This document shows positions 3,420 to 29,331 of a stretch of DNA of 64,000 nucleotides, one piece after another (the stretch's first letter is position 1; every line of letters starts with the position of its first letter). The translations under genes and the position numbers were made by a program. Source of the DNA: Candidatus Gastranaerophilales bacterium (lineage in GTDB: Bacteria; Cyanobacteriota; Vampirovibrionia; Gastranaerophilales; Gastranaerophilaceae). The DNA lies in NCBI GenBank assembly GCA_944326515.1, contig CALVEI010000002.1:1-64000 (forward strand), in the 5' to 3' direction. The notes under the pieces are model-generated. The model did no database searches, had not been told where the DNA came from, and saw nothing but the letters and a program-made list of their open reading frames with translations.

Positions 3420-4802
3420 ATGACACAATCATTTTACACCGCAATAGGCGGTATGAATGCAGGGCAGACTAAAATTTCTGTAGTTGCAGACAACATTGCA
3501 AACATGAACACTATCGGCTTTAAAGCTTCAAAAGTAAATTTTTCTGATGTTTATTACAGAACATCTTCATTCGGTAAAGCACCAACAAGTGCTGGTTCTG
3601 GTGGTATCAACCCTAAACAAATCGGTGTGGGCGTACAAACAGCATCTATTGCGAGAGATTTTTCAGCAGGGACAACTCTATCTACCGGTTTAAATACAGA
3701 TCTTTGCATCAACGGTAGCAGCTTCTTTACCGTAATGTCAGCAACAGACGGTATTTTATTTACAAGAGACGGAAACTTTAATGTTGACTCTAACGGAAAC
3801 CTTGTAACAGCAAACGGAGACAAAGTACTCGGTACAGCCAGTATGCTAGGCACATCTTCAAGTGAAACCCCTATAAAAATTCCAACATATATAACAACAG
3901 TTACATCACCAGCAACAATTGACCAACTTAACACAAAACGTCTTAATGAATTAAACGGTGTTTTAAGCGGTGGAGTAACAGGTGGAGCATTTACAATCAC
4001 ATCAATAGACGATGCGGGAAAAAGAACAAACCATGTAATAAATGTCACTCCTGATATGACCGTTGAAGGTTTAGTTAACGCAGTAACAGCACAAGCTGGC
4101 GGAGCGTACACTGTTGCAGTAAATGATAACGGACAACTTTCTTTCGAGCCTGATGGCGATGCTGTAAACCTTGAATTTACAAACGGTAATTTAGATGATC
4201 CTGATGCAGCAAAATCAAATTTTGCTACAGTTTTAGGTTTTGGTTCCGCTAATGAAGACGGAACTTACACATCCCAAGTTATGCACTACCATCAAACTGT
4301 TGGATCAGGAACATTAAGTGACTTAAATTCTGAAAACTACACTCAATTGACAATTGACGAAAACGGTATTATCGAAGTAACATACGGAAACAACGATAAA
4401 TTGAGTGTAATGCAAGATCCTAACAACCCGGAAAAAATGATATTCCAATACACATTAAACAGCGGTATCGTTATTTACGGTGATGACTTAACAATTAATG
4501 ACGGTCTCGTAGAACCAGCTAACTTACAAATACAACTTGCAAGCTTTGTTAACCCTAACGGTTTGATTGCAGAAGGCAGCAATACTTATTCTGCTGGCCC
4601 AAACAGCGGTATGGCATTGTATGGAAGCATCAGCTCTAACGCTTTTGGTAACGTATCTTCAGGCGTACTTGAAGGCTCAAACGTTGATTTGGCAACAGAA
4701 TTTGCAGAAATGGTAGTTGCACAAAGAGCTATTGAAGCAAACAGCCGTGTATTTGATACAACAAGCCAAATTCTACAAACACTCGGTCAATTAGGCAGAT
4801 AG
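3420..4802 (+). CDS. flgE: Flagellar hook protein FlgE
   Basis: This 460-aa protein has the N-terminal axial-protein motif SFYTAIGGMNAGQ and ANMNTIGFKAS (residues 4-38), and the C-terminal helix with SNVDLATEFAEMVVAQRAIE that closes the hook D0 domain. FlgE polymerises outside the cell into the universal joint between rod and filament. The ribosome site GGGAGGA is 5-6 nt before the ATG. Residues 172-275 resemble the middle segment of FlgD. A strong terminator follows, so this appears to end the fliJ-fliK-flgD-flgE unit. Confidence 0.93.
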   Translation: MTQSFYTAIGGMNAGQTKISVVADNIANMNTIGFKASKVNFSDVYYRTSSFGKAPTSAGSGGINPKQIGVGVQTASIARDFSAGTTLSTGLNTDLCINGSSFFTVMSATDGILFTRDGNFNVDSNGNLVTANGDKVLGTASMLGTSSSETPIKIPTYITTVTSPATIDQLNTKRLNELNGVLSGGVTGGAFTITSIDDAGKRTNHVINVTPDMTVEGLVNAVTAQAGGAYTVAVNDNGQLSFEPDGDAVNLEFTNGNLDDPDAAKSNFATVLGFGSANEDGTYTSQVMHYHQTVGSGTLSDLNSENYTQLTIDENGIIEVTYGNNDKLSVMQDPNNPEKMIFQYTLNSGIVIYGDDLTINDGLVEPANLQIQLASFVNPNGLIAEGSNTYSAGPNSGMALYGSISSNAFGNVSSGVLEGSNVDLATEFAEMVVAQRAIEANSRVFDTTSQILQTLGQLGR

Positions 4803-4838
4803 TAATCTAACAACTCCAAAATATATAATTAGCAATTG

Positions 4839-4868
4839 AAAACCCGAAATCAAATGATTTCGGGTTTT
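4839..4868. terminator. Bidirectional terminator between flgE and prs
   Basis: A perfect 13-bp inverted repeat (AAAACCCGAAATC with GATTTCGGGTTTT) closes a 4-nt loop. The A and T runs at its ends let it work on both strands, which suits its place between two convergent genes. Confidence 0.9.
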
Positions 4869-4900
4869 ATACTCTCTTCTCTTAATGCTTTTTTGCCATT

Positions 4901-5911
4901 TTAATATGACTTGTATTCTTTTTCAAATCCAAATAAAGAACTTACAGACTCGTTATCATGGATTCTTGAAATTGCCTCACCCAAAATAGGTGCAATACTC
5001 AACTGTGTAAATTTAGAAGAAACTGGTCTGTCTAAAGGTATTGAGTTAGTTATAATAACTTCTTCAACAGGAGCATCTTCTAATCTTTGTATAGCCGGAC
5101 CTGACAATATACCGTGAGCAGCACACACATAAACTTTTTCAGCTCCTTCTCTAATAAGAAGTTTAGAAGCTTCGCATATAGTACCGGCTGTGTCAATCAT
5201 ATCGTCAACCAATACACAAATCTTGCCTTTAACATCACCAATAATATGGTCTGCAATAGCTTCATTATGTTTATCACGTCTTTTGTCAACAATAGCTAAC
5301 GGACAATCCAACTGTTTAGCAAAAACTCTTGTTCTTTGCACACCACCAGTATCAGGGCTGACTGCAACAAGTTTATCGTGAGGGATATTTAAGTTTTTAA
5401 TATACTCTGTCAAAACAGGTGTTGCATAAATATGGTCAACCAAGATATTAAAGAAACCTTGAATTTGACCTGTATGTAAATCCATTGCCAAAATTCTGTT
5501 AGCACCTGCTGTTGTTAAAAGATCTGCTACAAGTTTTGCAGTAATAGCTTCTCTTCCTGAAGTTTTTCTGTCCTGTCTTGCATAACCGTAATATGGAATT
5601 ACAGCAGTAATTGATTTTGCACTTGCTCTTTTAAAAGCATCAATCATAATCAGCAGTTCCATTAAATTTTCATTTACTGGATTTGATAAAGGTTGAACAA
5701 TGAAAACATCATCTCCACGGATACTTTGTTGAACTTGAACGTAAATTTCACCATCAGCAAAATTTTTAATAATCATCGGACCAACGCTGGTTCCTAAGTA
5801 ACTCGCTAATTCCTCTGCAAGCTCCTTATGTGCGCGACCTGAAAACAACTTTATATCGTGTGTCGGATTGATAATTCTTTCGCGCTGTGGAAATTCCATA
5901 GTCAATTCCAT
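4901..5911 (-). CDS. prs: Ribose-phosphate pyrophosphokinase (PRPP synthetase)
   Basis: The 336-aa enzyme makes PRPP from ribose 5-phosphate and ATP, the precursor of purines, pyrimidines, histidine and NAD. Visible landmarks are the PYYGYARQDRK ATP-binding flexible loop near residue 110, the DLHTGQIQGFF metal-binding region, and the PRPP-binding loop VLVDDMIDTAGT near residue 240. Length fits the class I family (about 315 aa) with a short N-terminal extension. The ATG at 5911 follows an AAGGAAGG ribosome site; a second in-frame ATG lies four codons later. It converges on flgE and appears to be transcribed alone. Confidence 0.96.
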   Translation of the reverse strand: MELTMEFPQRERIINPTHDIKLFSGRAHKELAEELASYLGTSVGPMIIKNFADGEIYVQVQQSIRGDDVFIVQPLSNPVNENLMELLIMIDAFKRASAKSITAVIPYYGYARQDRKTSGREAITAKLVADLLTTAGANRILAMDLHTGQIQGFFNILVDHIYATPVLTEYIKNLNIPHDKLVAVSPDTGGVQRTRVFAKQLDCPLAIVDKRRDKHNEAIADHIIGDVKGKICVLVDDMIDTAGTICEASKLLIREGAEKVYVCAAHGILSGPAIQRLEDAPVEEVIITNSIPLDRPVSSKFTQLSIAPILGEAISRIHDNESVSSLFGFEKEYKSY

Positions 5912-26748: not shown

Positions 26749-26770
26749 AAAGAGGGTGTTGTCCCTCTTT
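26749..26770. terminator. Terminator after the 52-aa protein gene
   Basis: AAAGAGGG and CCCTCTTT form an 8-bp stem with a 6-nt loop. On the minus strand it is followed by six T, so it best serves the small gene at 26798-26956. Confidence 0.85.
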
Positions 26771-26797: not shown

Positions 26798-26956
26798 CTA
26801 TACTAAGCCTAACATTTTTTTGTACCAGCTGAATGTTTCAAGTTCAAGTCCGTTAAATGTTGTTTTCAAACATTGTCTTTTTAAATAACATTCGAATTCA
26901 TCATTAAATTTGGATTTAACCTTTTTTTCTTCCTTTGATGCAGTTTTTGTGGACAT
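26798..26956 (-). CDS. Small hypothetical protein, 52 aa
   Basis: This short gene begins MSTKTASKEEKKVKSKF and ends FSWYKKMLGLV. It has a near-perfect ribosome site (AAGGAGG, 7 nt before the ATG) and its own terminator 27 bp after the stop, which is the main reason to accept it. The first third is Lys/Glu-rich and probably flexible; the rest is amphipathic with two Cys (about residues 23 and 29). No known family, signal peptide or membrane segment. It could be a small regulator or an accessory subunit. Confidence 0.7.
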   Translation of the reverse strand: MSTKTASKEEKKVKSKFNDEFECYLKRQCLKTTFNGLELETFSWYKKMLGLV

Positions 26957-27174
26957 TTTGGGCCTCCTTTTTTGGATTTTTTAAAAATTAATAAACACAC
27001 AATATATAAAATTAAACCTAGACCTATTGAAACTAATTATAGCACACTATGCCCATGTTTGTCAGCACATTTACTATAAATGTAAAAGTTGTAAAGGTAA
27101 ATTTTTGCTAAAAATCAAGCGAATTTTAACTTTTGTATCTTTACACAACTTAACATATAGTGTGTTTAGGACAA

Positions 27175-27879
27175 TTATTGTAAGACGGCTCTTGCTATTT
27201 CACCGGGTGGATGCAGTCGGTCACCGGAAGGCAAATCTCCGTATTTTTGTTTCATTCTTGCAATAAGCTGTTTTTTGTCAGGATCAGGGTCAAAAAACAG
27301 TTTTGCATATATACTGACTCCGTCTTCAACAATAGGTGCAGTAGAATTGGAAAAGACTTTTCCGTACTTCTTAATAAAAGCACGATGTGCTACTGCGTTC
27401 ATCCCCAAGAAGTTTAACTCCTCCTGGATAGAACTTTGACCATCTTTATCTTTAGCATGTCCCGCCTCGTGCAATATAGCCTCACCTATCGCCAACATTA
27501 CAGCAAAATCATTTGTTTTTTGATAACGTTTATTTATCATAATGGCATTTTGATCAAAGCTGTATTGAGCGTGGACATCACGTTCAAACGGCTTTGCAAA
27601 ATAAAGACGAATATTTTCTTTTTTTATAAAATCCACGCACTCTTTGCCAGATTTAAAAGGAAGCCTGATTCCCATATTTTCTACATACCTAATATCTTCC
27701 GGCGCAAAAGTTAACTCATTAATTTCAGAAAGAGCTGTCGCAATGACACTGCTGCGTACCCAAGGCAAATCCCTCTGAAAGTCTATCTCTTTAGGCTTAG
27801 AAGTTTTGTTATTAGGTACCCATTTACAATTATTCATGTATGAATACATATTAGAATATATTGGAGAAACAGGTGTCAT
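27175..27879 (-). CDS. HEAGH zinc metalloprotease paired with the tetra-wHTH regulator
   Basis: The 234-aa protein has a zinc-protease helix AILHEAGHAKD: His137 and His141 as ligands and Glu138 as the base. Downstream QEELNFLGMNAV offers Glu153 or Glu154 as a third ligand and recalls the ExxANxFA motif of IrrE/ImmA proteases. No signal peptide is present, so it should act in the cytoplasm. It begins 7 bp after the stop of the GntR-type regulator, implying one transcript. By analogy with ImmA and IrrE it may cleave that regulator; this is inference. Overall similarity to ImmA/IrrE outside the motif was not evident by eye. Confidence 0.7.
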   Translation of the reverse strand: MTPVSPIYSNMYSYMNNCKWVPNNKTSKPKEIDFQRDLPWVRSSVIATALSEINELTFAPEDIRYVENMGIRLPFKSGKECVDFIKKENIRLYFAKPFERDVHAQYSFDQNAIMINKRYQKTNDFAVMLAIGEAILHEAGHAKDKDGQSSIQEELNFLGMNAVAHRAFIKKYGKVFSNSTAPIVEDGVSIYAKLFFDPDPDKKQLIARMKQKYGDLPSGDRLHPPGEIARAVLQ

Positions 27880-27886
27880 ATCTCAA

Positions 27887-29110
27887 TTAATTTTCGTTAT
27901 CATAGGTAATTGTATAATTAGGGCTAACAGCCAACCATCTGAATGCAGCCTCACCGTCTATTTCAGGCATATCTGTAACAAACGTACCGCCATATCTGCC
28001 GCGAGAAAAGTTAACTATCCCTTGTTTTGCCAAATTCTGCAGTGATTTTCTTATCGTATTTGAAGAAACATCAAAACGCTTTGACAATTCTTCCATAGAA
28101 GGTAGTTTGTCTCCTATTTCATAGTTGTCACTTATAAAGCTTTTGATAGTATTTTCTATTTTTTGATAACTGTAAAAAGCAGCTTCTGTGGCTGAAGCAA
28201 AAATAGATGTTTCATTAAGCGGCTGCAAAACATTTTCTGTAGAATTTATATCTGGTATTTTTATTACTGTAGTACCGTATCGGCCTCTTCTTGCTAGTAA
28301 ATAGCCTTCATCAATAAGGGTTTTCATCGCATCGTGAACGGTTTTTATACTAACCTTAAGAATATCAGACAGTTCTTGATGCGCAGGCAGCCTATCGCCT
28401 ATTTTAAAGTTATTCCTTATGTAATCCTTTAGTTCATCTTCTACTTTATCAACAAGAGTGTCAGCACTAATGACTTCTCCTTGGGTTTTCATAATTTCCA
28501 GTTCTTCGTCTGTAAAATCAGGAACCTTTTTTAAAATCCAGTTAGATTCGTTTGAGCGAAAAGCCTTTGGTTCAATAATCCCTTGTGAATAAAGATAATC
28601 TAAAGCAAGTCTAATCGTATTTGTAGAATTGCCTATTGCTGCAGCAAGCGACCTTGCAGAAGGCAAAGAATCATTAACATTGATATTGTTATCAACCAAA
28701 TATTTTTTTATCTCTGTAATAACCTTTTCTCTTTTTGAAAAAGCTTTTTTAATGATAGGGTTTGTAGAATTAGAATCCCTGATAATTGTGCCTATTCTTT
28801 GTTTAGACTCTAAAAATCCGGCATCTTCTACACTTCTTATTGCGTTTTGAACAGTTCCGACACTAACTCCTAAATAATATGCAATATCTTGTTTTTTAGG
28901 CAAAAGAGTGTTAGCTTGTATACCGCCTTTTTTAATACCTGATGTAATCCAATCAGTAAGCCATTTTTTTATTATCGAATCTTTAGATTCAAAAGAATTC
29001 TTAAAATCAGGAATTTCTTTAGGCAATTGAGAAATTTCTATTCTTTTAAGCTCTGATTTCTCAAGTTTTTCAAAACCTACTGTCTTATTAGTTGCAGATT
29101 TATCTGCCAT
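27887..29110 (-). CDS. GntR-type regulator with four tandem winged-helix domains
   Basis: This 407-aa protein contains four GntR-like winged helix-turn-helix units at about residues 44-112, 126-195, 219-288 and 314-384. Each shows LPxxxxLAxxLxVSxxTVxxAxxxLxxxG; units 1, 3 and 4 also have the wing with RxGT or RYGT/RYGGT. The usual C-terminal ligand domain of GntR proteins (FCD, UTRA or aminotransferase) is missing. It should bind DNA, perhaps several half-sites at once, as a monomer. It is divergent from the LysM gene across a 221-bp AT-rich gap and cotranscribed with a metalloprotease. Confidence 0.85.
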   Translation of the reverse strand: MADKSATNKTVGFEKLEKSELKRIEISQLPKEIPDFKNSFESKDSIIKKWLTDWITSGIKKGGIQANTLLPKKQDIAYYLGVSVGTVQNAIRSVEDAGFLESKQRIGTIIRDSNSTNPIIKKAFSKREKVITEIKKYLVDNNINVNDSLPSARSLAAAIGNSTNTIRLALDYLYSQGIIEPKAFRSNESNWILKKVPDFTDEELEIMKTQGEVISADTLVDKVEDELKDYIRNNFKIGDRLPAHQELSDILKVSIKTVHDAMKTLIDEGYLLARRGRYGTTVIKIPDINSTENVLQPLNETSIFASATEAAFYSYQKIENTIKSFISDNYEIGDKLPSMEELSKRFDVSSNTIRKSLQNLAKQGIVNFSRGRYGGTFVTDMPEIDGEAAFRWLAVSPNYTITYDNEN

Positions 29111-29331
29111 TTTGACCTCCTAAATTTGCATTTTGCCTAAACACAAGAGTTTTCACACATTAATAATCAATTTATTATACCATATTACTAAAAAAACAAC
29201 ATATTTTTTTTTGTTATTTTATGCAGAATTGTAAACAAATTTTTAACAAAACAAAAATCGTGGGCAATTTTTTAAAATAAAAAGTTTTTACATGAACAAG
29301 AGGAATTATTATTTTTTTTGAGGAGAAACAC

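Follow-up and report, generated by a model that had tools for sequence, protein, structure and literature searches.

A zincin-like protein encoded between a four-winged-helix regulator and a 52-residue protein in Gastranaerophilales

Three consecutive genes of a Candidatus Gastranaerophilales bacterium encode a regulator with four tandem GntR-type winged helices (REG), a zincin-like protein (PROT) and a protein of 52 residues (SMALL). As judged from sequence comparison, PROT appears to be a member of a zincin family that is specific to the order and includes proteins fused to TPR-like repeats. The leading specific mechanism, put forward tentatively, is that PROT acts on SMALL or on a partner of SMALL. 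About as likely is that PROT is a neighbour with no functional link to either gene.

An earlier note on this DNA had interpreted REG and PROT as a repressor-protease switch, in which PROT cleaves REG on a signal and a divergent LysM gene may be a target. That interpretation is partly supported as a whole; the cleavage of REG and the LysM target are weakly supported. Adjacency in a single genome over-suggested a repressor-protease pair.

The locus and its transcription signals

The window is the whole stretch of 64,000 nucleotides that was analysed. REG (27887..29110, minus strand) has 407 residues and PROT (27175..27879, minus strand) has 234. Inspection of the open reading frames confirms both genes as first described, on the same strand and separated by 7 bp. 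A third co-directional gene, SMALL, is located at 26798..26956 (minus strand) and encodes the protein MSTKTASKEEKKVKSKFNDEFECYLKRQCLKTTFNGLELETFSWYKKMLGLV. It was missing from the earlier account because it is short and falls under the usual size cut-off for open reading frames. The gene model of the locus is corrected here by its addition. In the closest relatives of this bacterium, PROT is 99% identical.

REG and PROT probably share one transcript from one promoter. For REG, the promoter's -10 hexamer, TATAAT, was read from the sequence at 29174..29179 (minus strand), and the -10 is conserved across genera. The same promoter contains a conserved element, AACAAAAAAAAATATGTTGTTTTTTTA (29189..29215, minus strand), which is a candidate autoregulatory operator and has a single match in the genome even when up to 3 mismatches are allowed. 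Because this element is both conserved and unique in the genome, it suggests that REG regulates its own expression.

SMALL would be transcribed from a strong promoter of its own, just downstream of PROT. This promoter (27036..27065, minus strand) has the form CTGACA-18-TATAAT with an extended -10; it has 11 of 12 matches and is the best in the region. A conserved element, AGCAAAAATTTACCTTTACA, lies 5' of it (27090..27109, minus strand) and has its sole exact match in the genome here. An intrinsic terminator with an 8-bp stem and a T tract follows SMALL at 26749..26770 (minus strand). In upstream sets that include near relatives, such that percentages count related genomes repeatedly, TG.TATAAT is found in 88% of SMALL upstream regions versus 10% of background, CAAAAATTTAC in 58% of SMALL upstream regions versus 0/604 background regions, and TG[TA]TGTTTTTTTA in REG promoters at 44% versus 1%. 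A longer form of the last pattern occurs once in this genome.

An operator shared by REG and SMALL is rejected, as their conserved elements differ. Searches of this genome with either pattern reveal no regulon. A motif F-[KRGQNHS]-[GA] is present near the N terminus (residues ~6-31) of some proteins of the examined loci; it occurs in 31 of 454 clusters, compared with 12-21 for equally large windows further along, a modest enrichment only.

PROT and the zincins

The HEAGH sequence at residues 137-141 of PROT is intact. Ten residues are invariant in 41 relatives with identities down to 33%: H137, E138, H141, D144, D146, S150, E154, N161, Y191 and H223. Since the catalytic residues never vary among these relatives, the HExxH motif is not a chance occurrence. 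The zinc-protease motif first proposed, His137, Glu138 and His141, is thereby upheld. Two glutamates had been offered as third ligand; Glu154 is invariant, and Glu153 is merely nearly so.

The AlphaFold model of PROT is confident (pLDDT 88, pTM 0.83) and shows a zincin layout. Strands are followed by helices at 125-144 and 151-172; residues 1-29 have a pLDDT below 50 and a variable sequence. In this predicted structure the HExxH motif lies on a helix beside a beta sheet, with E154 as the downstream ligand candidate, which would make PROT a zincin in the broad sense. PROT is probably a cytoplasmic and active zinc metallopeptidase. Action outside the cell, by an exported or injected peptidase, seems very unlikely, even though weak Pfam matches of single members point to metallopeptidases that are toxins or effectors. 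The PROT N termini have no signal peptide recognisable by eye, the gene is closely spaced to that of a regulator, and toxin or secretion genes are not recognised among its neighbours.

Libraries of known families offer little for PROT: it has no Pfam or NCBIfam match at E<=1, chance-level matches among the PHROGs, no match among the defence-system models of PADLOC, and no relative among solved structures by profile. Structural comparison with the PDB by Foldseek gives nothing under E 0.001. The best match there is IrrE, which is weak (E 0.032), followed by minigluzincins such as jannalysin and selecase (E 0.05). With VIA-align, every match falls under the stated noise level of Z 8: ChlB (8s5f) comes first by its alphaKG-HExxH domain (Z 7.9, 155 residues), followed by deuterolysin (6.7), SjiH, Wss1 and selecase, and IrrE reaches Z 4.8. 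Absence of a structure from these lists of fold matches does not speak against a relation to it. The minigluzincins selecase, jannalysin and abylysin have a small HExxH domain like that of PROT (Foldseek E 0.05, Z 5-5.6), but the overlap is partial and there is no sequence match.

HEXXH proteins can also be alpha-ketoglutarate-dependent oxygenases with a zincin-like fold (PMC12636437). PROT might accordingly be read as an oxygenase that modifies SMALL and not as a peptidase, given that the ChlB domain is its top structural alignment, that SjiH is third, and that a small protein is encoded alongside it. The chance of this is very slight. The ChlB score is itself under the noise level, and no match is found at E<=1 in NCBIfam, which may lack a model of the alphaKG-HExxH family IPR026337. 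SMALL is near-universal and near-invariant in its C-terminal part, unlike a peptide precursor. Gastranaerophilales are regarded as anaerobic, which also counts against an oxygenase.

The order also has zincins of ~345 residues fused to TPR-like repeats, with which hhalign aligns PROT over 134 columns (prob 97.6). The M78 proteins of the order, by comparison, share a core of 50 columns with PROT (prob 90), and because of this difference PROT is grouped with the order-specific zincins. The TPR-fused proteins have the core HExxHxKDxDxxTSxxEE in common with PROT. They differ from it in their N-terminal repeats and in being encoded at other loci of PROT-bearing genomes, in several genera. An example from the present genome is a relative of ~345 residues with this core, encoded at 4547-5578 of locus L174 (contig C11).

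Comparison with IrrE-DdrO and ImmA-ImmR

DdrO, a repressor of the XRE family, is a cleavage substrate of IrrE, and pairs of COG2856 and XRE genes occur widely, in many cases on mobile elements (PMC8072749). Such a system (IrrE/PprI-DdrO; MEROPS M78, COG2856) resembles REG and PROT in combining an HExxH metallopeptidase with a DNA-binding regulator, and the core strand and HExxH helix of IrrE resemble those of PROT. In ImmA-ImmR of ICEBs1, the regulator and the HExxH protein are adjacent, as are REG and PROT in some genomes.

The families are nevertheless different. PROT of the window has no match to the M78 profile PF06114 at E<=1, and 2 of the 41 relatives match it, the best at E 0.044. In the M78 proteins of the order, the third ligand follows the last HExxH histidine by 26 residues (H50 to E76) in the context EKQANxFA. 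In PROT the distance from H141 to E154 is 13 residues, the context is QEELNxLxxNA, and A-N-x-F-A is absent. Membership of M78 is rejected on the profile and on the spacing and context of the third ligand. The parallel with IrrE and ImmA (COG2856) does not extend to PROT as a family member, as neither the profile nor the E-x-x-A-N-x-F-A context is found. Of 117 genomes of the order, 29 have genuine M78 proteins of the ImmA/IrrE type that exceed the cut-off, and the present genome has none.

The regulators differ as well, since REG consists of four GntR winged helices and has no XRE-type DNA-binding domain. An unsystematic look at the neighbourhood of REG and PROT revealed no mobile-element genes, a difference from ImmA-ImmR. 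In addition, the pair is not generally conserved. REG and PROT thus lack four features of the IrrE-DdrO group (M78 profile, ligand context, XRE domain and conserved pair), but could still function in the manner of IrrE and DdrO.

REG is matched by the Pfam model PF00392 (GntR) in four stretches, with E 7e-45 and 151 bits, and by this winged helix it belongs to the GntR family. The units comprise residues ~45-118, 123-198, 220-288 and 312-384. They are weakly alike, with 27 of 68 positions identical between repeats 3 and 4, and the pairwise comparison of repeats agrees with Pfam on the four winged helices originally described. Most of the span 45-384 is occupied by these units; no effector-binding or oligomerisation domain is found C-terminally among the Pfam matches listed, and matches in NCBIfam and in PADLOC are restricted to the winged-helix parts. 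GntR-family regulators such as HutC, FadR and MocR share the PF00392 unit with REG, but REG has it in four tandem copies and without a recognised effector-binding domain. No description of a four-winged-helix GntR protein was found in the open-access literature.

Distribution, gene order and possible targets of PROT

A survey of 192 genomes of the order Gastranaerophilales finds REG in 186 and the highly conserved SMALL in 188. Outside the order, the genomes sampled have isolated winged-helix matches to REG only. In a phylum sample, SMALL is confined to this order, and 5 genomes of the same class from outside the order give no match. REG can be described as an order-specific core regulator, which probably controls its own promoter. 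No family model was found for SMALL, which has no match in Pfam, NCBIfam, PHROGs or PADLOC and chance-level profile matches to solved structures; its structural model is poor (pLDDT 58).

The surroundings of SMALL follow a few patterns. In many genera (loci L221-L228 and others), it is divergent from a very stable gene set, in which an exported TPR protein of ~670 aa is encoded along with products of 306 and 136 aa. In several genera (L091, L101, L107, L117, L235, L239), two genes are found 3' of SMALL, both assigned to families by eye: one is nitroreductase-like, and the other encodes an exported protein with the look of a von Willebrand A domain protein.

PROT is much less widespread, with 46 of the 192 genomes containing it and 44 of these as strong matches. 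Gene calls in the comparison genomes are mechanical picks of open reading frames, and the genomes are drafts in which contig ends may conceal neighbours (for instance, in G002). The counts that follow cover retrieved loci and listed places and may be slight undercounts, since some weak REG and SMALL coordinates are missing: PROT lies ~90-400 bp upstream of SMALL on the same strand in 30 of the 44 strong-match genomes, it is adjacent to REG in 18, and it adjoins one or both in 33. PROT and SMALL are neighbours in genera g1, g8, g12, g13, g16, g18 and g27, as well as in families f2 and f4. For REG and PROT, adjacency extends to four genera: g1, the genus of the present bacterium, with all 12 sampled genomes, g16, g23, and also g27, in which the two are divergent. 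The co-occurrence of the pair implied by the repressor-protease reading holds in these genera; in the other 26 genomes the adjacency was not found, and REG mostly occurs without PROT. The LysM gene is rejected as a conserved target, being retained beside REG in two relatives only; a third relative gives a weak match.

Several arrangements lack PROT at the corresponding place. In g8 and g12, PROT sits between the c5 gene and SMALL, and the same c3-c1-c5-SMALL locus is found without it in g2, g4, g5, g6, g7, g10 and g11. In g20 and g25, REG immediately precedes SMALL, and PROT is absent from the gap. No remnant of PROT was found in the gap between REG and SMALL of genome G138, nor in several other loci without PROT. 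PROT was not found adjoining SMALL in g22, g23, f6 and f7, and it was found beside neither SMALL nor REG in g22 (L081, L100, L103, L110) and in f6 and f7 (L083, L084, L098, L108, L115). On the REG tree, the arrangements require 11 changes, versus a mean of 32 when shuffled. They cluster by clade and are therefore mostly a matter of inheritance and not of scatter. Most simply read, the association of PROT with SMALL is old, SMALL being the earliest partner of PROT that can be traced, PROT was often lost, and REG lay beside both in part of the order.

Among specific mechanisms, action on SMALL or its partners is favoured, since the association of PROT with SMALL is wider than that with REG. PROT would process or turn over SMALL, or some protein bound to SMALL. 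Most lineages would have lost this optional layer, and in some, REG, acting on its own promoter, would have come to the locus and co-express PROT there. Against action on SMALL counts that PROT was not found beside it in g22, g23, f6 and f7.

Two observations weaken this mechanism and any specific action on REG alike. First, no column of SMALL distinguishes genomes with PROT from genomes without it, so SMALL bears no sign of having adapted to PROT. Second, the four-repeat layout of REG is unchanged where PROT is absent. The first also fits a peptidase, housekeeping or regulatory, whose target is unrelated and whose neighbours reflect inherited synteny only, and this reading stands level with action on SMALL. 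PROT is patchy, its neighbours vary by genus, it is cleanly absent from a fixed locus, and its TPR-fused relatives reside elsewhere in PROT-bearing genomes. The neighbourhood of PROT and SMALL may have been inherited without a functional link. Against this stands the recurrent adjacency of SMALL or REG to PROT, with the PROT-SMALL arrangement extending to f2 and f4.

Cleavage of REG by PROT on a signal, releasing the targets of REG, would make PROT an anti-repressor protease analogous to ImmA-ImmR and IrrE-DdrO, acting on a new DNA-binding fold. The 7-bp gap suggests a single operon, the pair persists in g1, g16 and g23 and divergently in g27, PROT bears a remote likeness to the IrrE fold and the M78 core, and the genome-unique element of the REG promoter fits autoregulation. 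This is unlikely all the same: about three quarters of the genomes have REG without PROT and with the same layout, for most PROT genes no adjacent REG was found, the M78 signature is missing from PROT, and REG has no recognised C-terminal dimerisation domain such as that cleaved in DdrO. It is similarly improbable that REG, SMALL and an optional, order-specific PROT form a joint control module, unrelated to the ImmA/IrrE-XRE systems, in which PROT inactivates SMALL or REG.

If PROT does act on SMALL or REG, the locus would represent a proteolytic switch that originated outside the ImmA/IrrE family. REG and SMALL, near-universal in the order and not found outside it in the sampled genomes, are candidates for the core biology of these uncultured gut relatives of cyanobacteria.
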